This document shows positions 691-16,871 of a stretch of DNA of 21,446 nt, piece by piece (position 1 is the first letter of the stretch; each line of letters opens with the position of its first letter). Source of the DNA: a virus; IMG/VR virus record IMGVR_UViG_3300013132_000303, positions 1-21,446 of that record. One strand, 5' to 3'. Under the pieces are notes generated by a model, which saw only the letters and a list, made by a program, of their open reading frames with translations, was not told the DNA's origin and searched no databases. Position numbers and translations under genes: made by a program.

Positions 691-2733
691 TTAGTATTCG
701 ATAGCCGCTGCAGTTACGCCACCAAGTGTATCACGGAGAGCAGCTGCTGCACCGTTTACGTTGATGGTTGATGTAACCTTAAGTGACTCAACGCCAACCT
801 TGGCAACACCTTCGAAGGTCTCAACGAACATCTTGTAGTCGTTGGTTCCAACTAGTGTGGAGTCGCGGATAACTCCGAGATCCAGTGTGCCACCGTCTAG
901 GAACAAGAATGTTCCCTCGGCGAACAAGTACCATACGAACGTATCGGTAAACTCGTTCATTGCGCTTGCACCTTGTGATGTAGTCATTGCTGAACCATCA
1001 ATTGTGTAGCAAGTGTTGATGCCGCGAGCTGCGATATATCCATCGATCTCGCCGTATGCGTTAAGGGTGTTGTCACCAGGAGCTGCAAGTGCGAAGTCGG
1101 CTGCCATTGCGTCCTTAACCCATGCAGGGATAATTGCGCGTAGTGGGAAGTCCGCTGGAAGGCGGTGACGTCCACGGTATTGAGCAGCTGCGCGACCAAG
1201 TTGTACTAGGAAGTCACGGCCCATACCGATTAAGGATGTGCTTGTAACTGCTGTTGACAATGTGGTCAAGCGGCTTAGGATCTGTGTCTCAGCCTCACGT
1301 GCGTGTTGAATAAGACCTAACTCGTTGTGACGAGCGATCAACTCAGGATATGCACGTGTCATTAGGTTACCAAATTGCAATTGCAATGTAACTGCGTCGG
1401 TAGCAACTGTGTTTTCTGTTGCTGCTGATACTGTTAGGCTTGCCTTTGTTGCAGTATCTGGTGCTGTATCAACTACGTTTGTCCAGACGCCGACTGCGTT
1501 GTCGTAGTCAGATAGTACTGGAGGCGTAATGAAGCGAATACCGCCACGATCTGCTTGGAAACGAGGTAGACAGTCGCGTACTGGACGCTCTGTAGTTCCG
1601 ATTCCGAAGATGTCGTACTTAACGGTAAATGGAGCAGAGTGTCCACCGGAAGCTACGATTGCCTCAGGTGAAGATACTGCTTGGATCTTATCCCAGTTGG
1701 CTTCTGCATCCTGTGTAAGGGTGCGATCCTCTGGGTATTGTGTGGTGATAGATGCAACGATGTGTTGTTCTCCATCTCCACCGTTTACACGGCGTAGACC
1801 ATGTAGACGCTTAGCCATTGCCTCGGCAACGGCCTTCATGTCTGCTAATTCACTGCCTGCTGTATAACCAGGAATATCAGCGCCAGCCGTAATTGCTACG
1901 GGAGCCGCTGATGATTGGGTTAGTGGGCGGCGATCAGCTGGAGCTTCAATAACTTCTACTGAAGCTGCCGGTTCGTTATTTGCGGCGGCGGTCACTGGTG
2001 CCTCCTGATCTTCCTGCACGATTTGTGCTTCGTTTGTTTCTGTGCTTGCTACAACTGCCTCTGCCTCAGCTACAACCTCGGCGGCTGCAACCTCATCAGA
2101 AGTTGTTGTTTCTACGGAGGCAGCCACTGCCTCTGTAGTTGGTTCTACCGCAGCAGCTACTGCCTCGGTAGTTTCAACAGTTACCGCAGGAGCCTCATCG
2201 GCTACTACTGTCTCTGCTGGTGTTTGTACTTCCTCAACTGCAAGTTCAGCAGCTGGAGTTTCCTCCGCTGCGGCCTCTGTAGTTGGCTCAGTTACTTGTG
2301 CTGTTTCTGTTGTTTCAGTTGAAAGTTCAGATACTTCTTCCACAGCAGTTGATGCTTCAGCCATTGGTTTTTCCTCTTCCTTTTCTTCAGCGGCGGGAGC
2401 TTCTGCAGCAGGCTCTTCAGCCGGCTTTATTTCTTCCTCCGCAGGGGTTTCGGTTTCGCCTTCAGGCGTTTCACCTTCTGCTTCACCCTTAACACGCATA
2501 GCGGCCTCGGCTGCGCGTGCTGCTAGCTCTTGAGCTAAAGCTTCACGACGGCTTACTTCACTACGGACGGTGTCAAGCATGTCAGCAAGAGATGTCATCG
2601 CATCTACTGTCTGAGGAGTAGGATCTTCCTTCTCAACCGTTTCAAATTCGCTGACGATGTCAGACTGTAGTTGCGCGACGTCTTCATCGCTTAACTCAGC
2701 CAGCATGTCGAGCTGTTGTTTTATACGGTCCAC
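691..2733 (-). CDS. Major capsid protein with fused N-terminal scaffolding domain
   Basis: This 680-aa protein is the likely main shell subunit. I start it at the GTG at 2733, because GGAGGAGGG ends only 3 nt before it. The ATG at 2775 has no Shine-Dalgarno sequence. Residues 1 to about 90 are charged and helical (KQQLDMLAELSDEDVAQL). Residues about 95-270 are low-complexity Glu/Ala/Thr/Val with repeated TTEAVAA-like units. The rest, from about 290, is an HK97-type shell: a long helix (AYPELIARHNELGLIQHARE), the segment GRHRLPADFPLRAIIP, and a C-terminal beta-rich half. Fused scaffold (delta) domains are known in HK97-like phages and are removed by the prohead protease, which is encoded directly upstream. 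The low-complexity linker is unusually long. Confidence is high for capsid and moderate for the exact start and cleavage site. Confidence 0.85.
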   Translation of the reverse strand: MDRIKQQLDMLAELSDEDVAQLQSDIVSEFETVEKEDPTPQTVDAMTSLADMLDTVRSEVSRREALAQELAARAAEAAMRVKGEAEGETPEGETETPAEEEIKPAEEPAAEAPAAEEKEEEKPMAEASTAVEEVSELSTETTETAQVTEPTTEAAAEETPAAELAVEEVQTPAETVVADEAPAVTVETTEAVAAAVEPTTEAVAASVETTTSDEVAAAEVVAEAEAVVASTETNEAQIVQEDQEAPVTAAANNEPAASVEVIEAPADRRPLTQSSAAPVAITAGADIPGYTAGSELADMKAVAEAMAKRLHGLRRVNGGDGEQHIVASITTQYPEDRTLTQDAEANWDKIQAVSSPEAIVASGGHSAPFTVKYDIFGIGTTERPVRDCLPRFQADRGGIRFITPPVLSDYDNAVGVWTNVVDTAPDTATKASLTVSAATENTVATDAVTLQLQFGNLMTRAYPELIARHNELGLIQHAREAETQILSRLTTLSTAVTSTSLIGMGRDFLVQLGRAAAQYRGRHRLPADFPLRAIIPAWVKDAMAADFALAAPGDNTLNAYGEIDGYIAARGINTCYTIDGSAMTTSQGASAMNEFTDTFVWYLFAEGTFLFLDGGTLDLGVIRDSTLVGTNDYKMFVETFEGVAKVGVESLKVTSTINVNGAAAALRDTLGGVTAAAIEY
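2040..2480 (-). repeat. Low-complexity Glu/Ala/Thr/Val-coding repeats
   Basis: This stretch encodes the scaffold-linker of the capsid fusion. It consists of imperfect repeats of the type (V/P)TTEAVAA(A/S)VE and EEKPAEE-like acidic runs. The composition also creates long open frames on the plus strand that encode only Ser/Ala/Val low-complexity sequence. Those frames are antisense artefacts. Confidence 0.7.
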
Positions 2734-2736
2734 TGT

Positions 2737-2745
2737 CCCTCCTCC
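2737..2745 (-). promoter_or_regulatory. Ribosome binding site deciding the capsid start
   Basis: GGAGGAGGG ends 3 nt before the GTG at 2733, with the GGAGG core 7 nt from it. It lies inside the longer open frame that begins at the ATG at 2775, so it argues for initiation at the GTG. Confidence 0.7.
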
Positions 2746-2775
2746 GGGCCAGTCATGATGAACGAGGTTGTTCAT

Positions 2776-2859: not shown

Positions 2860-5800
2860 CTAAGTTAGGAGTCGAAGAAGTTTGCTCATCTCGGATGAGA
2901 TCTCTGCCTGGGAGTAGTAGTCTCCACCGGACATAAATGACTTGAGGTCTACAGTTGCCTCGTCCGCATCCTTCTTTCCTATCTTGTTTTCTACCCTTGA
3001 GATCATGTCATCGATCAGACCCTTTAGGGCCGGAGGAAGGTCGCTGTACCGAACCTTCTCCGTGTCGCTTCCAAACGGCAGGGGCAGGTTGGCAATTACC
3101 TTGCCTAGAGCCCTTGCCGAGGAACGAACGTTTTCTAACGACTTGGAGTCGAGAGCTCCTGTATCAATTCGGTCAACAATCGAGATAAGGTCCCCTGCTG
3201 AGCGAGCAGCGTCCAGATAGTTTCCAGCATCATCTAGGTTTTCAACCTCCTCTATCTTCTTTATTGCCTCGTCTGACCCAGAGTCTCCAAGGTCGGTCTT
3301 TAGGCGGGCTAGTACCTGGCGGAACTTACCCTTTGCGTCTCGCGGTTGAGTCTCAGGGGTGTATTTACCCTGGTCTTGTACCTCAACCGCTAATGCTTTT
3401 CCCAGTTCTTCACCTGTATTTTCAATCTTTGATGAAAACTCGGCTAGTCTTGTGCGAATATCTGTTAGGTCCTCGTCGATGAGCGAGGCGGACGCCTTCC
3501 TCCACTTATCTGGAATTAGGTCAGCTCTGCCAAGTCCGCGGGCACGCTTCATGATGTGACGGCGAACCGCCGCGCGCTTGCCTGGCTTTGATCGTCCGTA
3601 GGCTTGGATCGAGTCCTTCAAAGAATCAATGTTTGTGATCGGATATGACCCATCAGGTAGGGCATAACCCTTCTTTGCAAGTGCCTCACGTTTTTGACGA
3701 GATATGTATCCAAACTCGTCGTCATACTTTGGCTCGCCGTGGATACGGGCATACGCCGCATCGGCGGAGGCTGAAAGCTGGGCTGCCTTTTCCTCGCGAA
3801 CTACGTTAAACTTCTCTCTTGCGGCCTCGGCCTTAGTCGAAAGTTCAGCATTTTCCAACTGCTCCAATTTTTGTACGCGAGCAGACAGTTCTGCGATAGG
3901 ATCTGATTTCATGCGGGCAAGTACACCTGCACCTGCGGCAACAAGTGCCATGACCGCTCCTGATGCAACGCGGGCGCGTGCGATTGGGAACCCAGGTACG
4001 TTTACCTGGCAGACGGCTACAAGTTCAAGGTGACCCTTGACCGGACGCCAGTCTCCTGAAGGTGCTGACGCACGAAGTGCTCGGATCTGCTCTGGTGTTG
4101 TTCCTGGGCGAAGTGCACCGGCGACCCAGATGCCAAAGGCATCCTCTCCTGCGTGGACGTCGGCGATCGCTGACGCCGTGTCATCATAGTGACGTACGGC
4201 CTCGGCGGCGCTTGCCTCGAGCGAGGCGTGTCCTCCTGCTAATGTTAGTTGACCGACCGGAACGTCCTTTCCGCCGTCGGTGCGTACGACTCCCGTGTGG
4301 AAGTATGCGTACTTGCTTCTGCTGCGTGGTGGCTTGGTTCCAAAGCTCATTCCGATGTGATCAACGTGCCATGCGGCGATGTGACCAAACACACGACCTT
4401 CGTCGTCAACGGTTAGGGGCGTTGCCTTGTTTAACTTTGGATCTTCAAACCAAGAGCTTGGTGGAACGACCGGGATAGATCCTGCGACAATTCCGCAGGC
4501 AACCAGGGCCGATGCCTCACTCTCATCCATTTCATCGACATATGTTCCGTCTGGAATCATAGTGTCCTCCTGTTTCTCGTCCTCGACGAGGTAGATTTGG
4601 CACTCCTGGAATGCCGGTTTAGGCACTAGAGTTACCGCCATCACTCGTGCATGGGTAATCACGAGCTTGTCGGTACCAATCTTACCATCTTCTTGCTTAC
4701 TGTCAGTTAGATCAAGTTCTTGGCTTGCCTCGAACTGATCTAGGTCCGCGGATACTCCACGGATAAATCCATTGCGGACAAGACGCTCAGCCTCCTGGCC
4801 GTACTCGCCCTGGTCAAACACACCGGTCGCGTTTCCGATGCCGTTGCCCATGTCACTTTCAATTCTCTCCATATAGTCTATGCGGCCAACAACAACTGAT
4901 CCGTTATGACCCTCAGCCGTCTTGATCTGCCACAGAAGAGGAAGTGGGAGCTCTCTAATCTCAATCGCGCCCTTCTTAAACTTACGCCCGTCTCCTGACT
5001 CGATCTCCTCAGGTATAACAAGTGGAATGCTAAACTTTGATCCGTCAGCGTACTCGATCTCGGCTCCGGCAGTTAGAACACGGTTACGTGCCTCGTTTGC
5101 TCGAGCAACAAGAGATGTAGTCTCAACTATCTGCTCCGAGGTAAGAATGTCGTCGATTGCCGATAGGGCACCTCGCTTCATTCCTGGGTTACGTCGGTCT
5201 CCAGGCCACATACCTGTCATCTCCTTGTGACGTAGCGAGCAGTACCCCTTCGCTCTTGGACCCATATATTTCTTTAGGTTGCGGTAGCAGCGTGTCCAGT
5301 CACCAGGTGTGTTCCAGCGGATCTTTACAAGTCCACCTTTTCCGATCGTCCAGTAGCGACGCAGTCTTTCAGCGTTTCCGCGGTTGCGGTCTAGTCCACC
5401 GGCAGCTTGAACTGGTTGCTGTTTTACAACTCCGTCTGGAATCAAGGCAAACCTGCAGTACCCTAGTGGCTCAACAGGTTGCTCGATGATCTTGCAGACG
5501 TCACCTCCTGCGTACAACATGCAGTTTGCACACGTGACGCCGATCTCCTTGTTCTCGTTCTCATCGGCAGACTCATATCCTGCCCAGACACCGGAGTCGT
5601 CCTCGTTAAACTTTCCATACTTCTGTGTAATCTCAATTAGTGCGTCGGCAAGCTCCTGCTCCTCAGCAACGATAACTCCAGCCGCGGTTAATGTCTCCTC
5701 ACTAGGAGAGGCTAGGAACATCACGTTTCCACCCTTGCCCCAAAGAACCGTGATAAACTTCTCGTCTGGCATCGCGCTCGCTGAAACCGAGGTAACTCCG

Positions 5801-7764
5801 TCTATCTGCTCGATCACGGACTTCAATGCCGCCGCGTCAAGCGGAACGACAGGAGGAGGAGTGGCGGAGTTCATGTCAACAAGAACTGCCTCGTTGCGTA
5901 CCCACTGCTTGTTCTCTCGGGTATATGTCATCGAGTTGGTCGAGTCGGTCGCCGCAGGGACAAGTGACACTAGGTCGATCACCGCACTTGGGTCATCCTC
6001 GGAGACGATGGCAAAGAACAGAGGTTGTACGTCCGATGTCTCAGGAGTAATAACCTTGTCCTCAGGTGAAGCGGACGCTACCCTAGGAACCGCAGGTTGG
6101 TAGTAAAGCTTGTTTGGGTAGTAGACCTTTCCGTCCGCGCCCTTTACCTTCTTGTTTAAGAATGCCTCGAGCAGCGGGTGCTTATAAGGATCGGTTATCA
6201 TCCTTACGCCGGTTAGGTCCTCAAGCTCCTTGATGAAGGCTGGCTTCTCATATTGCTCAGTTTGACCTGGACCTGTGATGATGCTGCTGCCAGGTTTTGC
6301 AGTAGACTGTCCTGACGTAAACGCATCACGTTGTCCCTTGACCCAGGCAGGCCAGTCACCCTGCATCTTTGCGATGTCCTCCTGGTTCATGCGAGGAAGA
6401 GTTCCAGGTATCTGTGCGTATGGGCGGTCGATCGGCGTGCGAGGTTGTCCAAGAATTCCTGTGGTGTCAAGACCAAGTATCTCAGGAAGAGGAGCTGATT
6501 GAACTCCAGGAGATACGTTACCCTCAGGCTCTGTGAGGTTTGCCGGTATCTCTACGGTCTTACCTGTTGAGTCTAGTTTAATTATTACGCTTGACTTCTG
6601 TGGATTTATCGCAACGATGTTTCCGCGCTTTGTTGTATCACCTGATACGACCACGCGCCCACCTTGCTTTGCAAACTTACCTGTCTTGTCGCGTACCTGT
6701 TTTTGAGCCTTCTGTGATCTTTCCTCGGGAGTGTAGACTCCGTCTCCCTTTTCAGCCGGAGCTCCTACGGCAACCATTGTTCTGTCAAGAAATTCTAGGT
6801 CTAGCTCCTCGGCCGCGCGAAGAACTAACTCCGCCTCCTCGTAGTTTATATCAAATAATGATACAGGTTCCTCTGGGTTTTCCTGGAAGCACGCTGATAG
6901 GAACAGTGCAGACTCTGGGTCGATCTCAACGTGACTAAACTCTACGTTACCTTCAAGCTCGTCTAGCACTAGGTCATAGCTTACGATGTCTGGATCAACC
7001 TCTGCAAGTGTGTGCCAGTGTCCTGCGTCCCACACGGCCAGTGATAGATCCTCGTCTATCTTGTATAGACGGTCTATACCTGATCCGTCCATGCGCATGC
7101 GGGCGACGAACTCGACGTTGCCTGAGCTGAACGCATCGACGTCGGCGTCATAGATTACCTCTTCAATAAAGTTAAACTCGTCGTCCTCGTAACCAGGAAG
7201 CGCATATCCGTCGGCTCTTAGAGCTTTCTTGTTTTCTCGCTCGACGATCTGTTGTGCCCAGCGCCACGCGGCGTCGCCACCCCAGAGAGCCCACGCGATA
7301 CGGCCGCGAGATGGGAAACCGTCCTCGCCTGGCTCGTACCCCTTCGCCTTCTTATCGATCTCATGACGAGGAAAATACTTCGCAATATGCCGTACCTTTT
7401 CGATGCCAATCTGTCCACCCTTCACTAACGTTCTAGCGGTGTTAACTCCAACCGGTGTTCCTCCGCGCTTGTGCTCCTTGCGCCACTCCAGTGCCTTCCT
7501 TGCCTCGGCCTGTGCGGCCTTTGGAATCGTGTAGAGACGGGAGCCTGCGGCAACTACAGCTATGTCGAGAGTAGTTAATGCGGCCTCTGCTAGCTCGTAC
7601 ACAGATGAGCCTTCGTCAATGTCAGAAGGCTCCCATGAGGCTGATGCAGTTAGTGCAGATACCAAACCAGACTCAACTACGATGTTCTCGTCAACGTCAA
7701 CTACTACACCGTTATTTTCGTCTGTAAATAAGACGTGAGACCCACTTTTTCCTACCTGGTTCAT
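2860..7764 (-). CDS. Giant multidomain capsid maturation protease
   Basis: I start this 1634-aa protein at the ATG at 7764, which overlaps the upstream stop as ATGA; an in-frame start at 7818 would overlap by 58 bp. Approximate order: residues 100-170, a phage segment with GRIAWALWGGDAAWRWA; 339-412, YTPEERSQ plus RDKTGKF and a KOW/SH3-like beta stretch; 740-778, a Cys cluster (CANC, later GYCRFALIPDG); 798-855, YWTIGKGG and GYCSLRHKE; 860-1060, the protease core with putative His about 952 (EGHNGSVVVGRID), Ser about 1003 (GVSADL) and a second His (ITHARVMA); 1120-1270, the actinophage protease C-terminal region (PPRSRSKYAYFHTG, VNVPGFPIAR); then a hydrophobic run, a coiled coil, a DUF6582-like region (1345-1428) and a helical tail with a second YTPE...RDAKGKF. 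It should cleave the scaffold of the capsid protein encoded next. Its length far exceeds usual prohead proteases. The protease call is firm; roles of the added domains are unknown. Confidence 0.85.
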   Translation of the reverse strand: MNQVGKSGSHVLFTDENNGVVVDVDENIVVESGLVSALTASASWEPSDIDEGSSVYELAEAALTTLDIAVVAAGSRLYTIPKAAQAEARKALEWRKEHKRGGTPVGVNTARTLVKGGQIGIEKVRHIAKYFPRHEIDKKAKGYEPGEDGFPSRGRIAWALWGGDAAWRWAQQIVERENKKALRADGYALPGYEDDEFNFIEEVIYDADVDAFSSGNVEFVARMRMDGSGIDRLYKIDEDLSLAVWDAGHWHTLAEVDPDIVSYDLVLDELEGNVEFSHVEIDPESALFLSACFQENPEEPVSLFDINYEEAELVLRAAEELDLEFLDRTMVAVGAPAEKGDGVYTPEERSQKAQKQVRDKTGKFAKQGGRVVVSGDTTKRGNIVAINPQKSSVIIKLDSTGKTVEIPANLTEPEGNVSPGVQSAPLPEILGLDTTGILGQPRTPIDRPYAQIPGTLPRMNQEDIAKMQGDWPAWVKGQRDAFTSGQSTAKPGSSIITGPGQTEQYEKPAFIKELEDLTGVRMITDPYKHPLLEAFLNKKVKGADGKVYYPNKLYYQPAVPRVASASPEDKVITPETSDVQPLFFAIVSEDDPSAVIDLVSLVPAATDSTNSMTYTRENKQWVRNEAVLVDMNSATPPPVVPLDAAALKSVIEQIDGVTSVSASAMPDEKFITVLWGKGGNVMFLASPSEETLTAAGVIVAEEQELADALIEITQKYGKFNEDDSGVWAGYESADENENKEIGVTCANCMLYAGGDVCKIIEQPVEPLGYCRFALIPDGVVKQQPVQAAGGLDRNRGNAERLRRYWTIGKGGLVKIRWNTPGDWTRCYRNLKKYMGPRAKGYCSLRHKEMTGMWPGDRRNPGMKRGALSAIDDILTSEQIVETTSLVARANEARNRVLTAGAEIEYADGSKFSIPLVIPEEIESGDGRKFKKGAIEIRELPLPLLWQIKTAEGHNGSVVVGRIDYMERIESDMGNGIGNATGVFDQGEYGQEAERLVRNGFIRGVSADLDQFEASQELDLTDSKQEDGKIGTDKLVITHARVMAVTLVPKPAFQECQIYLVEDEKQEDTMIPDGTYVDEMDESEASALVACGIVAGSIPVVPPSSWFEDPKLNKATPLTVDDEGRVFGHIAAWHVDHIGMSFGTKPPRSRSKYAYFHTGVVRTDGGKDVPVGQLTLAGGHASLEASAAEAVRHYDDTASAIADVHAGEDAFGIWVAGALRPGTTPEQIRALRASAPSGDWRPVKGHLELVAVCQVNVPGFPIARARVASGAVMALVAAGAGVLARMKSDPIAELSARVQKLEQLENAELSTKAEAAREKFNVVREEKAAQLSASADAAYARIHGEPKYDDEFGYISRQKREALAKKGYALPDGSYPITNIDSLKDSIQAYGRSKPGKRAAVRRHIMKRARGLGRADLIPDKWRKASASLIDEDLTDIRTRLAEFSSKIENTGEELGKALAVEVQDQGKYTPETQPRDAKGKFRQVLARLKTDLGDSGSDEAIKKIEEVENLDDAGNYLDAARSAGDLISIVDRIDTGALDSKSLENVRSSARALGKVIANLPLPFGSDTEKVRYSDLPPALKGLIDDMISRVENKIGKKDADEATVDLKSFMSGGDYYSQAEISSEMSKLLRLLT

Positions 7765-8759
7765 TCCTGCTCTTTCTCTTTTCCTGTCTCGTCGGTTACG
7801 GGCCCACCAGCTATCCACGCGTCACAAGTACGCGCGGCAGCACACTTAAAATCAAGCGCTTCGCAATATCCTAAATCGCCCGCGGCAACCACGTCATAGG
7901 AATCTGCGACGTTTTTGTCACCCTCCTGTAGTCCTGTTGCTATGCAGTTAAGCATCTTTGAGGTCTTGACAAACGCCGCGCAGTTTCCACACCGACTGGT
8001 CTTAGCTTCCTCGACGGTCGTGTTCCAGCGATCAGCCTTGGCTTGCCAGAACTCGTCGTTTGGCTCCTCTGGGTTTAACGGACCATATCCGACGTTGTCG
8101 ATCGCGTTTTGGCGATTTTTTATATTTAACACGATGTCCTGGGTCGCAGGAGGACAGGCGTCAGCGTCAACCGCCGCGGTCAACGCGATACTTGAGTCTC
8201 CGATGACGGTGTCATTTACTGTTCCCTTTGGAACTTCCTTTCCATCAAGAACTTCAAGTAGCCAGGCGTTTGGTCCCTGCGGGTCGATCTCTCCAACCGC
8301 CGCAAGTACTAACTCAAGCATTCCGTCCGCCGTGATCTTCTGCTCAGGATCATCACTTGAAAGTTGCTCGTAAAGTTCAGGGTAGTCGATGAATACCTGG
8401 TCAATATCTTCATTTGTTTTTACAAGAATGTCACTTATGTTTGAGTCAGTCAATGAGCGATCAAGTGACTTGTCAATTGAAAGCATCTCCTCGCTTGTGG
8501 CTATCTTCTCATTTTCTTCCTCACGGGGACTAGAAAACTTAAAGAATGTTAGTCCAAACTTTGCCAATGCTAAAAAGTCATCTGCCTTATAGGTACCAGT
8601 AGAACCTTCGGCCTTGTCCATAAGCATCTTTACGCGCCTCTTGGAGTCAAACATGACGTTGTCCTTTGAGAACACATACTTGAATCCCTTGTCGTTTGCG
8701 ATGATTGAAAATATGTGGTCATTTGTGTTTATATCGTAAGCGCGAGCTACCTTTATCAT
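7761..8759 (-). CDS. Structural-module protein with C-terminal six-Cys domain
   Basis: This 332-aa protein starts at ATG 8759 with AGGA about 6 nt upstream, 6 nt after the stop of the giant upstream gene. Residues 1-130 are charged and unrecognised. Residues 130-200 are acidic and include GPNAWLLEVLDG. The C-terminus has the segment EFWQAKADRWNTTVEEAKTS followed by six Cys at 257, 260, 272, 299, 306 and 312 (CGNC, LGYC, FKC, RTCDAW) and GGP. This Cys pattern recurs in uncharacterised proteins of many environmental phages and recalls high-potential iron-sulfur or zinc-binding folds. Metal type and function are not known to me. Its place between the giant kinase-like protein and the protease suggests a virion or head-assembly component. 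Its stop overlaps the protease start by ATGA, so translation is probably coupled. Confidence 0.7.
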   Translation of the reverse strand: MIKVARAYDINTNDHIFSIIANDKGFKYVFSKDNVMFDSKRRVKMLMDKAEGSTGTYKADDFLALAKFGLTFFKFSSPREEENEKIATSEEMLSIDKSLDRSLTDSNISDILVKTNEDIDQVFIDYPELYEQLSSDDPEQKITADGMLELVLAAVGEIDPQGPNAWLLEVLDGKEVPKGTVNDTVIGDSSIALTAAVDADACPPATQDIVLNIKNRQNAIDNVGYGPLNPEEPNDEFWQAKADRWNTTVEEAKTSRCGNCAAFVKTSKMLNCIATGLQEGDKNVADSYDVVAAGDLGYCEALDFKCAAARTCDAWIAGGPVTDETGKEKEQE

Positions 8760-8765
8760 TTTGTC

Positions 8766-11700
8766 CTATCCCCAGTACCCTGGCGTAAGTGCTGACTTCA
8801 ACTCTCTGTTTAACTTTGTTCCACTTGTAATCAGATCCTTTAGCCTGTTCTTCAAGGCAGTGCTAAACGCGTCATACGTTCCCCACTTGTCGATGATCGC
8901 TGCAAGCTCACCGCCCTTAGGCTTAACTAACTCGTTGTCTACGTTATCAATTATCTTTTGAACCTCATTTGCATATATCGCATACGCGCGATCCTTTCCT
9001 GCAAGCCCCACAAGTCCAGGCATGTTGTTTTGATAGACGTTTCCAACGTCCTCTCTCCACTCCATTGCTAGGAAGCTGTAGATCTGATCCTCGGCAATGC
9101 TGTCATCAGTTGTGATGGCAGCAAGTGAGTTATCAACAGGAAACATAACCAACTTGTTGTCTGTTGTGTCGTAGGCAACCATCCAGTTTCCGTCATGACG
9201 ATCCTTGTTGTCTCCTAACATGTCAAGTATAGACATGCGAATTATGTCCTCTGGGTTCTTTAGCTGCTTAATAAATTCCTTAGGTTCATCTCCGTAGTAT
9301 CTTTCTCCATCTGGAGATGGAAGTCCGTATTTTAACATCCTAGATGCATTTACAGGCTCAATCGCAATAGGAAGGTTTGCTCCTGCACGCGACATGATTA
9401 TAAGATCTTCATCTTGGTTTGATCCGCGCACCGCGTAGGTACCGTTCATTCCCATCGCGTTCATCAGGATTGACATCTCTAGCTCTCCGGTGATGCCACG
9501 AACGTTGTTCCAGTTTCTAGAGAGCTCCTCCTTCTTTACATAGAACACCTGACCACTGACAGTGTGGGTAACCTCCCAGATGCTGTTCATTCCACTTTCA
9601 TCAACTGAAAGTTCTCTGTATGTATAACCTGCGTTCTCAATTTTAGCCGCATCATTTTCAAAATCATCAGCGGTAAACTCTGTAAGTGCCTCTCCAACCT
9701 GGAATGGATCTGAGTACGCATGGTCTGCTCGGTACTCTGCTGTCAAGGCGTTACGTAACTTAAACGTATCCTCAATCTTTACCTTACTGTTCTTGTTTAT
9801 CATCTCTAGACTTATGTAGTTGCTTAACGCAGTTTTTGCGTCAGGTGACAACTTACCAAGTGGATCGTTATTTCTTATGACCGTTCGTATCTGGTCAATG
9901 TAGACTGATAACTTTGGGTTATCAGTCTGGAAGTCATTACTTGCTACGTAGGCAATTAATTCTGAGCTAACGTTGGGCTTGTTTTGTCCAGCCTGTATAC
10001 GACGCTCGGCATTTTTAATTTGATTATAGTTTATCGCCTGCACTTGTTCTCTTGCTGAAGGCACAAGATGCTTGGTGCCGTTCCATGACGTTTCTGTCAT
10101 GACTGACTTTCCTATCCAGTTTGTTGCTCCTGGATACCAGCCAACGAGTGCGAGTTCCATAGGCGTTGGAATCTTTGAAACGTCGTACTTTCCGCTGTTT
10201 ATGTCATACGCGTCTGATATCTTCCTGTTTAGACGTCTTGCAACTTCCTTTTCATCTTCATTTCCTTTTCTTAAGATGGTATTTACGATACTTTTTGCGT
10301 TTGATCCATCACTTGATCCCCAGCCAAAGCCGTTTAATGCCCAGACAAACCCGCCTTGATACTCACGGCCACCGGCTGCAAATACCTTTACCTTCTCTAT
10401 CCCGTTTGCGATGTACCAGTTTTCCATGTATCGGTTATACGCACTTGCAAATCCTTTTTTCTTGTTTTTTCCAGTTACCTTCATAAAACTGTTGGATACG
10501 GTAACTTCTTTTGTCTTAGTTCCGTCTAAGTTGTTTATTATCTTAAACAATATTTCACGACGAACAGTACCAACGTTAGCTCCACTTTGGTCTAGTATGT
10601 TAAATGATACCTCCATGTTAACACCCTTGCTACCTGACAAAATTTCTTCAGCAGTTCCCTGTCCATACCCTTGTGCCGAAAGTAGCTGTAAGGTGTAATA
10701 CTCTGCGCCGAACGAAAGTCCGCTACGTGATCCGTATGCGTCAGCGGCCATTATGTTTAGGCGGTTCTGCGCTTCCTTAAGTTTTTCTCGATCACGGCTT
10801 TCGCGCGCGGCTGTAACTTCACGCAGAGCCTTTTCGAGCTCATCTAAGCTTACTCGGTCATTGGCCGCCTTGGCAATCTCCGCGTCACGCATTCCCCACT
10901 CAATAAACTTACTTTGCGGAACGTTCTTCTGTGTTAGATCCTTAATCTCGTCTGGAATCTTGCTGCCGACGTCATTAACACCGACTGTATCACCTGACCT
11001 TGCGATTCTAGGTGAGATCTCTGTTGGACGATCAAGTCTTTCTGTGACGTCGGTAGAAGGTGAAGGTTGAACTGATCTTAAGACATCTGAGACTGCCGCA
11101 GGTGCGGATCCGTCTGCGTTTGATACTGCCTTTACCTTAAATGCCGAGCGAACCGCGGTCTTTCCGTCGTCAAATAAAACACGAACATACTCAGGGTCAT
11201 TTTGAATTGCTACTACTGTTCCTTGCCTTCCATCCTTTGTAGCAACTACTCGCATTCCGGCGGCAAGTATCTTTCCGTCAATGTCAATGGTTGTGTTTGC
11301 GGTTGTGTATCCTGGTTGACGAGGTCCTGGGTACTCAGGCGTAGGCTCGGAAGGTGTCTCATCATCTGGAGTCTCTGCCTGAGGCTGTACTTCCTCATCA
11401 TTGACCATACTATTTGATTCATCACGCAACTTAAATAAAATGTCATTTGTGTTTATGCCTTGGTATTGAAGTGCGTCACGGATAGCCTCAACAGGAACCT
11501 CGGACGTAGAGTCATCATTAAATCTAACTAATGCTGCTCCACTTCCATCTGTAATGCCAGACTTCATCTGTTGTATAAGGTCTGAGCTACTTTTAACCAT
11601 TATTGCTATGTACTTAGGATTATCAGTGTAGCCTAATTCGTCTGGTTCAAGTATAGTAGAGGTATAAGGTGATAGGTCCATGTTGTAGTAGTCTGGATTA

Positions 11701-14099
11701 TCGAAATCAACTGGAATATTTTCAATTAAGTTACCAGGAAACTTCATATCCTCGTCATCTACATTGGTGTCTGCGTTTGTTATAGGTTTTTCTTCGTCTG
11801 GAGTTACATCGTCTATCTGTTTAATTTCATCAATGATGTCAACTATAAGCTTTTCTTCCTCAGGGGTAGGCACTCCGCCCTGAGCCTCAAGAAGCTTACG
11901 TAGATTGTTGCGATTTCCGTTGACGGCATCGTACGCGTTTGCAATTACACGGTTTGGATCTCCACCTGCTAACCACACCGCGTTGTACAGTGCCTCGGCT
12001 GGAACAAACTCGTCGCCTGCGTTAAACTCAAGAGAGCCTGCGCCGGATGCATTTACTCTCTCACCTCTAGGAACATTTATAGGTAGGTTATTCTCAAGTA
12101 TGTCACCGACCTCCGATAGATCAGGAAGGTTTCCATCTCCGTCGTCGTTGATGTCAACTATGTCCTCAACTACGTTCTCATCTACGTCACCGATCAGTGA
12201 CCTAGTAAACGCCCGAACAATTATGTCTAAGGGAAATCTAACCGCAATCCTGTTAGGCGCGTCGGTGAAGTCGGTTGACTCCTCATCTACACGTCCTTCA
12301 GGCTCATAACTTACCGCGCGTAGTCTAAATGCTCCGTCAGGAACGTCAAACCCAGAAAAAAGTTCTGGTGCTGATGTCTCCGCGGAGCTAGATACTTTTG
12401 GGAGTACTGTATCCTCATCAATCTTAGGCAACTCGTCAACAACAGTTGAGTCTATTGGATCAAGTCCGATCGTTGCGCGACCTTGGTTTATCTGGTCAAT
12501 TATCTTAGGAGTATCCTCGGTTATCTGATCCCACGATGTAGCAGGTCTTGCGTTATCAAACCAGAATCCACCCGTACCGTAGTTGATGTTTCCATCGCGA
12601 CCTACAACAGCAACGAGATACTCGTCGTTTCTTGTTGCTCCTGGAATATCCTTGTAGTACGTCTCGCTGATCTCGCTTGGATCTATCCTGGAGTACCAGC
12701 CGTCCGGCAGATCTCGTCCCTGCGAGTCCTTTCCTGACAACGCTCTCTCAAGTTGATCTTCAATTCTCTTGTTTGACTCCTCGTTTTGAGGAACCTGGTC
12801 CTTAAGCTGCTTTATCTCCTGTTGAATCTCTCGGTTCATTCTTGAGTAGCGAGGCTCAGGACGTTCTCCGTCACCAAGTGGAAGTTGACCGGACTCTACG
12901 TCCTCCTTGTACTTGTCGTACGCGTCCTCGTCAGCTTCCGCAACGTTCTGTGCGTCGGCCCAGGTCTTAGCGTCTCCAACCTTGTCGCCTGTGTTTCCCT
13001 CAGGGTCAAGGCGGTGAACTGAGTATCCATCGTCTGTTGGAATTACCTTGTAGTCATCATCTGACGTAAATGATCCGTCGTCGTTCTTCTTCCAACCTGA
13101 AGGTGTGTCAACCCTTGTGTTAAGCAGATCCTCGATGTTTGGAATTGACTCGTCAAACTGAGATGAAAGTTTATATCTTGATTTTTTGTCTGTGTCAACT
13201 CCCGCTCGCTCAAGCTCTGCCTCTGATAGTCTTGCCTTGAAGACCTCGGCGTTGCTGTTGCTTACGGAGTAGATACCGTCAGGGATGTTTTTATCTCCCT
13301 TAACCTCAACTAAACCTGCATTTGCCTCCTTCCTTGCCCAGTTTCCAGAGTATCCTGCGCTTGAATCACTGCCGACGTACGTTCCAGCGGCGGTTGCAGT
13401 ATTTCCGTTTGATAGTCTAAACTTAAAGTTAATTCCACGTCCCATCTCAACCCAGCGGCCGTAGCGATCACGCCACTGCAACTTTACGCGAGCACGTCGC
13501 GCGGCTGATGAGTTTCCATCACCAAATGAAAACGCCGCAACAAGTGCAGGCATGTCGATCTTTAGGTACGCAGGAAGTGCTGATGCCTTCACCGCGCTAA
13601 GACGAATAAACGCGTGCTCGCGCTCGAGAGATCCTGGCAGCTGCGAGTACGCCGCCGCAACTAGGTGACGAACGTCATCTGAGATTCCTGGGTCGGCTGA
13701 GAGCCAGGCTGCATACCTTTGTAGATAGTCCTCGGTTGACAAAGATGCATTGTGATCTGACAGCGGGTGTCCTGCCGGTAGAAGGTCCGTGTGCTTTGCA
13801 TATGAGTCATTTGCACGAAATGTATTTTGATTTAGCGAGATAAACTTGTTTACCTCACGTAAAACTCCAGCCTCACGTGACTCGTCTGACAAAGATGAAA
13901 GCTCCTTCATCGCACGGGCCATGATGATAAGTGCTGAGCGCGGTGTAACCTGTCTCTCCGGCAGTGCCACGTTGTTTGCAAACGTAACAAGTTGAAGTAC
14001 CTTCTCGTTAATCGAGTCTGAGGTCTTAACGTCAATCTTTACCTCAGCGGCCTGCCTACCTTCAACTAGGCCGATCATGCGATCAATAGGTAGATCCAA
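8766..14099 (-). CDS. Giant virion-module protein with GNAT-like and kinase-like domains
   Basis: This 1777-aa protein starts at a TTG at 14099 with AGGAG 7 nt upstream. Visible parts, approximate residues: TDLLPAGHP (about 100); RDRYGRWVEMGR with a beta-rich stretch (207-300); several acidic modules (340-900), two of which look duplicated around F-N...VP-x-EA; a KOW/SH3-like segment (942-990, GMRVVATKDGRQGTVV); a GNAT-like stretch (1160-1345, KKKGFASAYNRYM, GGFVWALNGFGW); and a kinase-like C-terminus (1490-1730). The last has FYVKK, a Glu in a following helix (TGELEMSILMNAMG), a hinge-like DLIIMSRAG, GDNKDRHDGNWM and FPVDNSLA. That is the order of Lys, Glu, hinge, catalytic loop and metal-binding loop in PI3/4-kinase-, HipA- or Fam20-like folds. 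The position between portal and protease is where actinophages often carry MuF-type or effector fusions, but I recognise no MuF domain. A role as an injected effector is inference. Confidence 0.7.
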   Translation of the reverse strand: MDLPIDRMIGLVEGRQAAEVKIDVKTSDSINEKVLQLVTFANNVALPERQVTPRSALIIMARAMKELSSLSDESREAGVLREVNKFISLNQNTFRANDSYAKHTDLLPAGHPLSDHNASLSTEDYLQRYAAWLSADPGISDDVRHLVAAAYSQLPGSLEREHAFIRLSAVKASALPAYLKIDMPALVAAFSFGDGNSSAARRARVKLQWRDRYGRWVEMGRGINFKFRLSNGNTATAAGTYVGSDSSAGYSGNWARKEANAGLVEVKGDKNIPDGIYSVSNSNAEVFKARLSEAELERAGVDTDKKSRYKLSSQFDESIPNIEDLLNTRVDTPSGWKKNDDGSFTSDDDYKVIPTDDGYSVHRLDPEGNTGDKVGDAKTWADAQNVAEADEDAYDKYKEDVESGQLPLGDGERPEPRYSRMNREIQQEIKQLKDQVPQNEESNKRIEDQLERALSGKDSQGRDLPDGWYSRIDPSEISETYYKDIPGATRNDEYLVAVVGRDGNINYGTGGFWFDNARPATSWDQITEDTPKIIDQINQGRATIGLDPIDSTVVDELPKIDEDTVLPKVSSSAETSAPELFSGFDVPDGAFRLRAVSYEPEGRVDEESTDFTDAPNRIAVRFPLDIIVRAFTRSLIGDVDENVVEDIVDINDDGDGNLPDLSEVGDILENNLPINVPRGERVNASGAGSLEFNAGDEFVPAEALYNAVWLAGGDPNRVIANAYDAVNGNRNNLRKLLEAQGGVPTPEEEKLIVDIIDEIKQIDDVTPDEEKPITNADTNVDDEDMKFPGNLIENIPVDFDNPDYYNMDLSPYTSTILEPDELGYTDNPKYIAIMVKSSSDLIQQMKSGITDGSGAALVRFNDDSTSEVPVEAIRDALQYQGINTNDILFKLRDESNSMVNDEEVQPQAETPDDETPSEPTPEYPGPRQPGYTTANTTIDIDGKILAAGMRVVATKDGRQGTVVAIQNDPEYVRVLFDDGKTAVRSAFKVKAVSNADGSAPAAVSDVLRSVQPSPSTDVTERLDRPTEISPRIARSGDTVGVNDVGSKIPDEIKDLTQKNVPQSKFIEWGMRDAEIAKAANDRVSLDELEKALREVTAARESRDREKLKEAQNRLNIMAADAYGSRSGLSFGAEYYTLQLLSAQGYGQGTAEEILSGSKGVNMEVSFNILDQSGANVGTVRREILFKIINNLDGTKTKEVTVSNSFMKVTGKNKKKGFASAYNRYMENWYIANGIEKVKVFAAGGREYQGGFVWALNGFGWGSSDGSNAKSIVNTILRKGNEDEKEVARRLNRKISDAYDINSGKYDVSKIPTPMELALVGWYPGATNWIGKSVMTETSWNGTKHLVPSAREQVQAINYNQIKNAERRIQAGQNKPNVSSELIAYVASNDFQTDNPKLSVYIDQIRTVIRNNDPLGKLSPDAKTALSNYISLEMINKNSKVKIEDTFKLRNALTAEYRADHAYSDPFQVGEALTEFTADDFENDAAKIENAGYTYRELSVDESGMNSIWEVTHTVSGQVFYVKKEELSRNWNNVRGITGELEMSILMNAMGMNGTYAVRGSNQDEDLIIMSRAGANLPIAIEPVNASRMLKYGLPSPDGERYYGDEPKEFIKQLKNPEDIIRMSILDMLGDNKDRHDGNWMVAYDTTDNKLVMFPVDNSLAAITTDDSIAEDQIYSFLAMEWREDVGNVYQNNMPGLVGLAGKDRAYAIYANEVQKIIDNVDNELVKPKGGELAAIIDKWGTYDAFSTALKNRLKDLITSGTKLNRELKSALTPGYWG

Positions 14100-14101
14100 C
14101 T

Positions 14102-15172
14102 TTATTCTCCTGATGCCTGTCGACGTCTTCTTGGTAAAAGATCTGAGTCCTTGGAGTTGTATAGGTTTGTCGCTAGGTCATACGCGCGTTGAAACGGTAC
14201 GTCGCCGTCGCGCACGCCGCGTAGCCACGCACCACGTAGCGCTGGGATCACCTCGTAGCCAAGTCCTGTGTACTCTGCCATCGAGTAGATCGCGTGCTCA
14301 GGAGAGCCGTATTCATCGGCGCTCTTAAGTGCAACCTCAAGAAGCTCGTGTTGAATAAGCGAGGCCTCACCGCGACTTGATCTAGGATGTGCCTTAGGCA
14401 AAAGATCGTTGTCCTGCTTGTAGTTTGGATTGGCGGGACGTCCTGACCTTAGAAGTTTTAGAAATGCGTTAACGCGAGCCATCGCCCACTGGTCACGGGT
14501 CTTACCTGGTCGGTGACTAGATGAGAACGCTCCTGATCCTCTGCGGTAGACAGCCTTCAGCATCGGAAGAGTTGCCTTGCGTCCTGGAGACGCATTCTTG
14601 TTATGTTCCTCAATCTTGTTGCGTAGTGCCTTCTCAACCTTTGCACTAAATACTATCTTCTTTCCACCCGCGGCTGAGCCTGGCGCGTTTTTTCTTGAGC
14701 CGTAGATGCGGTCCTTCTTAGGTGCTCTGCGTGACGCGGCAAATTCCTTCGCGGCTGCCGAGTCCTTTGGCACACAGTTTGGGACCATCTTTCCGTTCTT
14801 TTCCTTCATGCCAACCTGAACGTATCCGTCCCAGCATGAACCTTGGGCAGCGGCGGTAACCGGACCAAGTGCATCAAGGCGAGCCTCGCACATACAGGTT
14901 ATCGGACAAGGACACTCTTCTGAAGGACAGTTTTCACAGGCACAGCCGAGCTCGTCACAGAACGGGCAATCATACTCGCCTTCAACAATTACTTCACCCG
15001 CAGGAGCGTCTTCTAAATCATCATAGTTGTCTGACACAGGAGATTCATCAACAACACTAATAGTGGGTGTAACAGATACCTCATCCTTTAGGCGTGAGTA
15101 GAGCTCAGCCATCTTAAGAAGAATATCCGCTGCCTCCTGTGAGGTTGGGTCCTTGTGACTATCGTTATGCAC
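14102..15172 (-). CDS. Cys-rich head-module protein
   Basis: I start this 356-aa protein at the GTG at 15172, inside the last codons of the portal gene (8-bp overlap), with AGGAG 10 nt upstream. An in-frame ATG at 15247 would give a longer overlap and an unlikely Leu-rich N-terminus. Features in order: an acidic N-terminal third; a dense Cys cluster (FCDELGCACENCPSEECPC, ITCMCEAR) likely to bind metal; SCWDGYVQVGMK...VPNCVP, a short motif seen in other phage structural proteins; a basic stretch; then LKAVYRRGSGAFSSSHRPG and WAMARVNAFL, a segment I associate with conserved phage proteins next to the portal; and DNDLLPKAHP. The C-terminal SDLLPRRRR repeats the DLLP theme. Its function is unknown; a head or packaging role fits the context. 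Confidence 0.7.
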   Translation of the reverse strand: MHNDSHKDPTSQEAADILLKMAELYSRLKDEVSVTPTISVVDESPVSDNYDDLEDAPAGEVIVEGEYDCPFCDELGCACENCPSEECPCPITCMCEARLDALGPVTAAAQGSCWDGYVQVGMKEKNGKMVPNCVPKDSAAAKEFAASRRAPKKDRIYGSRKNAPGSAAGGKKIVFSAKVEKALRNKIEEHNKNASPGRKATLPMLKAVYRRGSGAFSSSHRPGKTRDQWAMARVNAFLKLLRSGRPANPNYKQDNDLLPKAHPRSSRGEASLIQHELLEVALKSADEYGSPEHAIYSMAEYTGLGYEVIPALRGAWLRGVRDGDVPFQRAYDLATNLYNSKDSDLLPRRRRQASGE

Positions 15173-16871
15173 CTGGTGTCTGCTCCTGTTCCTGGGTAGG
15201 TTCATCAATTTCATCAGAAGGAGGAGTAACTCCCGCCGCCTCATCAAGCGCCTGTTGAATCTCAGGTGGTATCGGCGCAGGTGATCCTGCGTTTTGAACC
15301 TCGCGGATCTTGTTCATGAACTCCGGAGAGATCGCGTTTATCATCGCCTCGGTGAGCTCAGGAGATAGAGATCCCTTCTCAACTAGAAGACGAATTGCAA
15401 GCTCCTTGGCGTCAGGGGCATCTGCGGCGGAGAAGCCGTGTGCGCGTCTCCATGCCTCCATCGACACCGCCATCCGGTCATATCCGGAGTCCGCGTCTGA
15501 CGCGCGGTCATTTCTTGTTGCAACCTGTGATGGGTCATACCAAACACAGATCTTCTTTACGTCCTCCTCGGTAAAGCCTGACGCGATAAGCGCTGGTCGT
15601 AGGTACACAACCGTGATCGCGTCGGCGATCAAGAGCATCAACGGCTCGATGTGCGCCTTGTACAGAGCCTCGTCGATCTGAAGCGCGTTTGAGTACTTAA
15701 CGTTTGCTAGTCCTGTGACGATGTCCTTAGGAACGTCAAGTCCCTGAAGGATACGCTCGAGCACTCGGTCAGCGCGTTGGGCAAGCGCTGGGTCAAACGA
15801 GCGCTCAAACTTAAACTGCTTAATCTTGTCGCCAAGCTCCGCAGGTCCGCGGATGATAAGTGGCACGACCGCACTTGCGGAGTCCTCGTCGCGGATCGGA
15901 GTTGTCATCGCGTCGATGAGCTGATCCTCAAACTCGTCCTCGGCCTCCTCGACCGTTACACCTGGATTTAACTCGTTCTCGTCGTCATAAGGGTAGTCAG
16001 GATCTCCCTGCGCGGCGACTGAAAGTCCGTCCGGCAGATAGAGTGCTCCTGCGTTTAGGCGTGACCTTGCGGTCGCGCGAAACGTTCTGTTTAAAAGTAA
16101 AAGTTCAGCGCAAAGGTCAAGTAGACCTCTTAGACTTGAGTCAGCCTCCTCGGAGTAGCGTGGGTGAGCTCTCCAGATGCGTCCAACGAACGCCTGGTTT
16201 GGAAGCTTGATTGCCTTGTCGCTGCCGCGACTTGCGGACGTGATGTCACGACGTGGAACGATCATGTATGAGTTTCTTGAGTCAACCTGTAGCTCGTCTG
16301 TAGATCGGATGTCCCATGACTCTGGAGTTCCTGTTCCCTGCTTTGCAGGGAACTGCACAAGATAGCACTCACCTGACACTGATAGGTTTAGTGCCGCGTC
16401 ACGTAATAAACCGGCCTGTCCCCCGTATGCGGAGTCAAGTCTTGACAGTGCACGCTCCGCGGCTGAGGCAAGTCGTGGATCGATAAAGTTACTTGAGCGA
16501 ACTGATACCGGAGTCTCCGCAGGGTTATCAATTGCCGCCGCGTAGAGACGAATTCTTGAGACGACGGACGCAACTAGGTTAAATGCGTACTTAACCTCGC
16601 CGATCGCGTCGTAGTACTCCCAAGCCTCACCCTGCCAGTCACTTGCTCCTCCGGCACGGCGTTGCTTAAAGTACTCAACCTCTCCCTTGTCGTTGAGAGG
16701 AATGCGGGCTGCTGCCGCGGTCATTGCTCGCGGTGAAGAATATGCAACAGGTTGCGCGAACGTTGACTCGCTCGTGATGAGCGTTATCTGACTTGGAATC
16801 TGCTTAGGTTTGTTTTGAGAACGAGAGGTCAGACGTGTGTTGCGAGGTGTATCTTTTCTAAATACTGCCAA
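15165..16871 (-). CDS. Portal protein
   Basis: This 568-aa protein is the probable dodecameric portal through which DNA enters and leaves the head. It starts at a TTG at 16871 with GAGGAG 6 nt upstream. Supporting features are the N-terminal helix after EAWEYYDAIGEVKYAFNLVASVVSRIRLY, the Trp-containing segment AFVGRIWRAHPRYSEEADSSLRG, and the region at about residues 376-400 (GLDVPKDIVTGLANVKYSNALQIDE) with the helix that follows. These are typical of the SPP1/HK97-type portals of actinophages. The C-terminus is Pro/Glu/Gln-rich and disordered. Its length is normal for the family. It opens the head module, 39 bp after the DUF1360-like gene, and its end overlaps the next gene by 8 bp. Confidence 0.88.
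   Translation of the reverse strand: MAVFRKDTPRNTRLTSRSQNKPKQIPSQITLITSESTFAQPVAYSSPRAMTAAAARIPLNDKGEVEYFKQRRAGGASDWQGEAWEYYDAIGEVKYAFNLVASVVSRIRLYAAAIDNPAETPVSVRSSNFIDPRLASAAERALSRLDSAYGGQAGLLRDAALNLSVSGECYLVQFPAKQGTGTPESWDIRSTDELQVDSRNSYMIVPRRDITSASRGSDKAIKLPNQAFVGRIWRAHPRYSEEADSSLRGLLDLCAELLLLNRTFRATARSRLNAGALYLPDGLSVAAQGDPDYPYDDENELNPGVTVEEAEDEFEDQLIDAMTTPIRDEDSASAVVPLIIRGPAELGDKIKQFKFERSFDPALAQRADRVLERILQGLDVPKDIVTGLANVKYSNALQIDEALYKAHIEPLMLLIADAITVVYLRPALIASGFTEEDVKKICVWYDPSQVATRNDRASDADSGYDRMAVSMEAWRRAHGFSAADAPDAKELAIRLLVEKGSLSPELTEAMINAISPEFMNKIREVQNAGSPAPIPPEIQQALDEAAGVTPPSDEIDEPTQEQEQTPGA

Follow-up and report, generated by a model that had tools for sequence, protein, structure and literature searches.

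The described concept closest to the protein reported here is that of the polyvalent proteins of phages and conjugative elements (Iyer et al. 2017, PMC5512222). Like the giant slot protein encoded in the window (the whole stretch of virus DNA analysed, a record of 21,446 bases), polyvalent proteins are multidomain giants encoded among virion genes, carry varied enzymes (ART, GNAT, kinases and others), and are proposed to be packaged and injected (PMC5512222); the concept, including injection and kinases, is already known. The window giant is multidomain, lies among virion genes and has exchangeable enzyme domains; Pfam matched none of the domains of the 2017 survey (e.g., ART-PolyVal and Kinase-PolyVal) to it, and ART occurs in the slot proteins of its relatives. 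Described mainly for (pro)phages of Verrucomicrobia-Chlamydia and Bacteroidetes, the polyvalent kinases have no C-terminal subdomain, and an insert separates His from Asp in their catalytic loop (PMC5512222), whereas the kinase of the window giant has a catalytic loop without insert, a helical C-lobe and a PI4K/HipA/FAM20-type motif. The terms HipA and PI3 are absent from that survey.

For map position, the precedent is the 'Gratiaviridae' gut phages, which, as the part of the report used here describes them, carry a HipA-like kinase between portal and major head protein (MCP) (Benler et al. 2021, PMC8008677). The likeness to the window is one of position and description; in contrast to the packaging considered below, that part of the report proposes a late anti-superinfection function and describes no giant or head-protein fusion (PMC8008677). 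The haloarchaeal 'phosphatidylinositol kinase' of HCTV-6 (gp16) and its relatives is, like the window domain, a PF00454-like kinase in a head/tail module, its gene lying between head and tail completion genes, but gp16 is a separate gene product of 490 aa in a virus with an archaeal host, and the paper describing the haloarchaeal virus genomes does not discuss it. MuF polymorphic toxins of temperate phages (PMC5576092, PMC3482391) join a head-associated N-terminal domain to a variable C-terminal enzyme, and the 2017 MuF paper makes no mention of kinases. They differ from the window giant, in which no MuF domain is recognised and for which no immunity gene was identified; with no MuF match in Pfam or PHROGs, the giant was ruled out as a MuF toxin. 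A HipA toxin-antitoxin module was likewise ruled out: the window and the homologues gave no HipA_C match, and no HipB-like neighbour of the gene was identified.

Phage kinases studied so far are, to our knowledge, all made inside the cell; that of T7 is made early there and is not packaged. If the kinase described here is carried in the head, it would act at time zero, before the phage expresses a single gene, and the principle of T4 Alt would be carried over from ADP-ribosylation to phosphorylation. Alt, the prototype of a head-packaged, injected enzyme, differs from the window protein in being an ADP-ribosyltransferase, and the T7 gp0.7 kinase phosphorylates host proteins (PMC5512222); two studied phage kinases are named in the part of the Gratiaviridae report used here (PMC8008677). 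Our literature search on virion-packaged or phage HipA/PI3K kinases yielded the Gratiaviridae report as the sole direct precedent, and the papers searched gave no virion proteomics or activity measurements for any member of the family. Judged by this literature, the new elements are that a PI4K/HipA-type kinase sits on a portal-adjacent giant, that cultured relatives differ in whether this gene carries such a kinase, and that kinases of this type are fused to head proteins of three kinds.

The giant is encoded in a head module on the minus strand, with the following features:

691..2775, minus strand: major head protein (phrog_777, E = 4.7e-78)
2860..7818, minus strand: head maturation protease-type protein, downstream neighbour of the giant (phrog_859, phrog_18402, phrog_29860)
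7761..8759, minus strand: 332-aa protein between giant and protease (conserved synteny)
8766..14099, minus strand: giant slot protein, 1777 aa (open reading frame list; blocks from homologue comparison)
within 8766..14099, minus strand: N-terminal region (residues 1-540), middle block (568-900) and C-terminal block (923-1777) of the giant
9915..10922, minus strand: conserved block, residues 1060-1395 (336 residues), with no assigned fold (alignment)
13020..13517, minus strand: N-terminal slot domain, about residues 195-360, common to Microbacterium and Arthrobacter phage slot proteins with other C-termini
14102..15247, minus strand: DUF5824-containing protein between portal and giant (PF19141, E = 2e-7)
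15165..16871, minus strand: portal protein, upstream neighbour of the giant (phrog_776, E = 2.8e-111)

In the direction of transcription the order is portal, DUF5824 protein, giant, 332-aa protein, protease-type protein and major head protein, and this order is kept in every family contig of sufficient length, in agreement with the sequence-only reading, which had placed the giant gene between portal and protease. The giant starts at a TTG codon at 14099 with AGGAG upstream, and its SPID/SPIN opening sequence is common to several homologues. Comparison of homologues defined the three common blocks listed above, between which family members carry anything from no insert to one of over 1300 residues. 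Ahead of the kinase domain lies the 336-residue conserved block, with the signature GFAxAYNRYMENWY...WALNGFxW, which had no match in Pfam or the PDB. By eye it resembles GNAT, but Pfam, PDB and HMM comparison gave no backing for this and we left the block unnamed.

In the related contigs L020, L024-L026 and L035-L037, pieces of the 332-aa, DUF5824 and protease-type proteins (window 7761-8759, 14102-15247 and 2860-7818) are shuffled among head-module genes. The inserts of the giants in L037 (residues 440-1650) and L029 (residues 530-1890) are made up of cassettes with EPPTPPSG-type linkers between them, and L037 has near-exact repeats of one ~120-residue cassette, which suggests recombination between linkers.

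The sequence-only reading had pointed to five kinase motifs at the C-terminus of the giant, and all five are present, in order and at the spacing it gave, including a hinge strand (DLIIM) between the predicted helix glutamate and the catalytic loop. It had assigned them to the last ~240 residues (8910-9635); the C-terminal location stands, while the domain proved slightly larger than that:

8769..9665, minus strand: PI4K/HipA/FAM20-like kinase domain, about residues 1479-1777 (Pfam, alignment, AlphaFold, Foldseek)
9534..9536, minus strand: codon of Lys1522, predicted beta3 ATP-binding lysine (FYVK), invariant in the family
9483..9485, minus strand: codon of Glu1539, predicted alphaC glutamate (GELE), invariant with distant kinases included
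9186..9203, minus strand: catalytic loop DRHDGN, Asp1633 to Asn1638 (alignments)
9132..9134, minus strand: codon of Asp1656, predicted metal-binding aspartate (PVDN) (alignments)

To characterize the domain we used a kinase family enlarged with IMG/VR contigs through iterated scans. None of the five active-site residues (Lys, Glu, Asp, Asn and Asp) varies among the 14 members of the family alignment, and Glu, Asp, Asn and Asp are invariant in 27 of 27 sequences when distant phages are included, down to about 15% identity. Loss of the Lys, DRH and D(N/H) residues across homologues would have told against a kinase; every family homologue keeps them. Pfam PF00454 (PI3_PI4_kinase) matched the window domain alone with E = 1.4e-4 and 22.3 bits, under the curated cut-off of 27.1, and matched 14/14 homologues (E up to 0.5, best 9.6e-6); several other phage kinases exceed the cut-off. 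With a profile built from 12 kinases of other phage lineages the giant reached 37.4 bits (E = 6.8e-11), while none of 500 shuffles scored above 7.7 bits (best E 0.078). The DRH motif had itself led to several of the 12, which makes this comparison circular in part; the Pfam and fold comparisons are free of this circularity. Searched against the PDB, the family profile gave weak matches at the catalytic loop to PI4KII, CtkA and FAM20A, and its top matches (methylthioadenosine phosphorylase, fructose bisphosphatase and superoxide dismutase) covered short stretches and were treated as chance. A single-sequence search of the PDB gave no match, and tblastn of the kinase domain against annotated phages, together with a genome-contig scan, gave no close relatives.

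Structure prediction gave the domain a kinase-type bilobal fold, the feature by which the sequence-only assignment could have failed. The AlphaFold model built from 27 sequences, kinases of unrelated phages included, reached pLDDT 90.1 and pTM 0.89; a model from 6 close sequences (pLDDT 41) was discarded. The predicted N-lobe has three strands with the lysine on the third, followed by a helix with the glutamate, a linker strand and the catalytic loop, and the predicted C-lobe is all-helical and extends to the end of the protein. The best 50 Foldseek matches in the PDB were all kinases or kinase-superfamily enzymes, among them HipA (4pu5; probability 1.00, TM-score 0.46) and PI4KII-alpha (4hnd; probability 1.00, TM-score 0.48). 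Among viral models, the best two were uncultured Caudovirales proteins, one of them named PI3/4-kinase, and a 1201-aa protein annotated as HK97 portal appeared lower down. Chance occurrence of the motifs is excluded by the AlphaFold model and the shuffle comparison, and the PF00454 matches, the model and the Foldseek matches bear out the kinase-like assignment: residues 1479-1777 are, on the predicted structure, a PI4K/HipA/FAM20-type kinase domain with an intact active site. Since TM-scores to HipA and PI4KII were at best 0.44-0.48, it is a divergent kinase.

Inositol lipids occur in actinobacteria and archaea, and a kinase of this type might act on them, or on small molecules, in actinobacterial or archaeal hosts, which would be compatible with packaging. 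The best Pfam family and the weak PDB profile matches are indeed PI3/PI4 kinases, and among the top PDB matches listed 4hnd has the highest query TM-score. We nevertheless consider a lipid or small-molecule substrate quite improbable: HipA and FAM20, which share the motifs, are protein kinases, and the structural score of HipA is almost equal. Sequence does not separate substrates, and nothing in this analysis tells lipid from protein substrates.

Between close relatives the kinase domain has a dN/dS of 0.06-0.14 and is under purifying selection. Its residues and this selection are consistent with ATP-dependent phosphotransfer. The divergent fold, with TM-scores below 0.5, could also be that of a degenerate kinase kept for structure or binding alone, but this is extremely unlikely given a dN/dS of about 0.1, a Lys that is invariant within the family, and Glu, Asp, Asn and Asp that stay invariant even where identity falls to about 15%.

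The portal of the window is closest to that of Actinomycetia phage DSL-LC01 (76% identity), followed by Microbacterium phages (58-64%) and Arthrobacter phages (46-48%). DSL-LC01 is a lake phage assembled from a metagenome with a predicted actinobacterial host (PMC10611076), and by analogy the host of the window phage is probably among freshwater actinobacteria. Despite the 76% identical portal, the slot protein of DSL-LC01 retains the first two blocks in part and has a different C-terminus. The N-terminal slot domain of the window giant (about residues 195-360) recurs in portal-adjacent giants of cultured Microbacterium and Arthrobacter phages, whose C-termini vary. In Microbacterium phage Pumpernickel, gp82 has a PF00454-like kinase at its C-terminus (E = 7.2e-5; a viral scan with this kinase as query gave no matches); the N-terminus and core of gp82 recur in Zooman gp70, Cece gp68 and Big4 gp74, which end ahead of the kinase. 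Arthrobacter slot proteins carry a UvrD helicase, combined with ART in Atuin gp71, and the portal-proximal gp75 of Sixama, in a comparable position, has a C-terminal ART. Between the window and contig L005 the kinase is 43% identical, against 76% for the portal and 79-82% for the MCP, as expected of an effector and not of a core part, although such fast divergence also fits scaffold-like proteins.

Kinases of the same type are joined to other head proteins. L039 encodes a lambda-type portal with a C-terminal kinase (PF05136 plus PF00454; phrog_21), L062 a head maturation protease (phrog_1522, E = 8.5e-80) with a C-terminal kinase (PF00454, E = 4.1e-6), and L078 a MuF/head-morphogenesis domain (phrog_241, E = 4.7e-21) joined to a kinase, an architecture that recalls the MuF toxins. 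Myxococcus phage Mx1 encodes a kinase, its N-terminus weakly matched by GNAT, that adjoins an ART-PolyVal/NUDIX protein. We tentatively suggest, as a reading with somewhat less than an even chance, that there is a widespread class of virion-borne kinases in bacterial and archaeal tailed viruses: PI4K/HipA-like domains that seem to have been fused on several independent occasions to portals, head proteases, MuF proteins and giant slot proteins, and that would be delivered at DNA entry and phosphorylate host targets before phage expression.

For the window giant itself, we think it rather probable that it is a polyvalent-protein-like head cargo with an active C-terminal kinase that is delivered along with the DNA and acts on one or more host proteins. 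The N-terminal part, conserved in the phage group, would probably attach the giant to the portal or procapsid, so that the giant is packed with the head. The kinase would then enter the cell together with the DNA and phosphorylate host protein(s) ahead of phage transcription, which may favour takeover or blunt defence. The conserved portal-giant-protease-MCP order, the swapped C-terminal enzymes and the head-protein fusions support a virion effector indirectly; from these we infer packaging, injection, a protein substrate and the time of action, and calling the N-terminal slot domain, for which no function is recognised, a 'packaging domain' is a guess. The reading is directly testable in cultured phages that have the same slot with the kinase (Pumpernickel) and without it (Zooman, Cece and Big4).

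Since late expression is the rule for head genes, the kinase could instead do its work in the cell at a late stage, or on head proteins as they assemble. It might then steer assembly or packaging in the producing cell by phosphorylating portal, protease, capsid or scaffold, making injection unnecessary; its location among head genes and the fusions to portal, protease and MuF would place it beside such substrates. However, the C-terminus of the slot protein is swapped for ART, helicase or no recognised enzyme in related phages whose head genes are conserved, which indicates that head assembly in general does not need the kinase, and ART and helicase have no obvious role in assembly; we regard this alternative as unlikely. 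A late-made kinase might also protect the infected cell from superinfection or modify the envelope, by analogy with five Gratiaviridae phages that have the same portal-MCP map position and for which, in the part of the report used here, this function was proposed (PMC8008677). Such a role seems very unlikely here, as it leaves both the giant polypeptide and the portal, protease and MuF fusions unexplained.

Beyond the family studied here, the same slot holds what looks like a second, divergent kinase-like family, to judge from its motifs. Sixama gp73 (L017:16713-19037), Phendrix gp66 (L018:16789-21228) and residues 1685-1863 of L014:19270-29139 have a domain in common, with the motifs KYYIK/YYVK, an INELLGHK-type helix, AWLANWDxxxxDN and VDTGG. 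The portal-adjacent Sixama gp73 matched the window kinase model weakly in Foldseek (E = 0.011), a link seen by Foldseek only; aligning gp73 directly with the window kinase gave a meaningless result. By eye, Sixama gp73 and Phendrix gp66 also carry an LLDGHHR-type ParB-like motif. In L085 and L083, a PspA-like coiled insert of ~150 residues in a kinase-like phage protein separates the DRH loop from a later ALIDNG, which holds the metal Asp. L009:1448-10666 encodes a second actinophage-like giant of 3073 aa, with the same kinase type at its end and most of the remainder unrelated.
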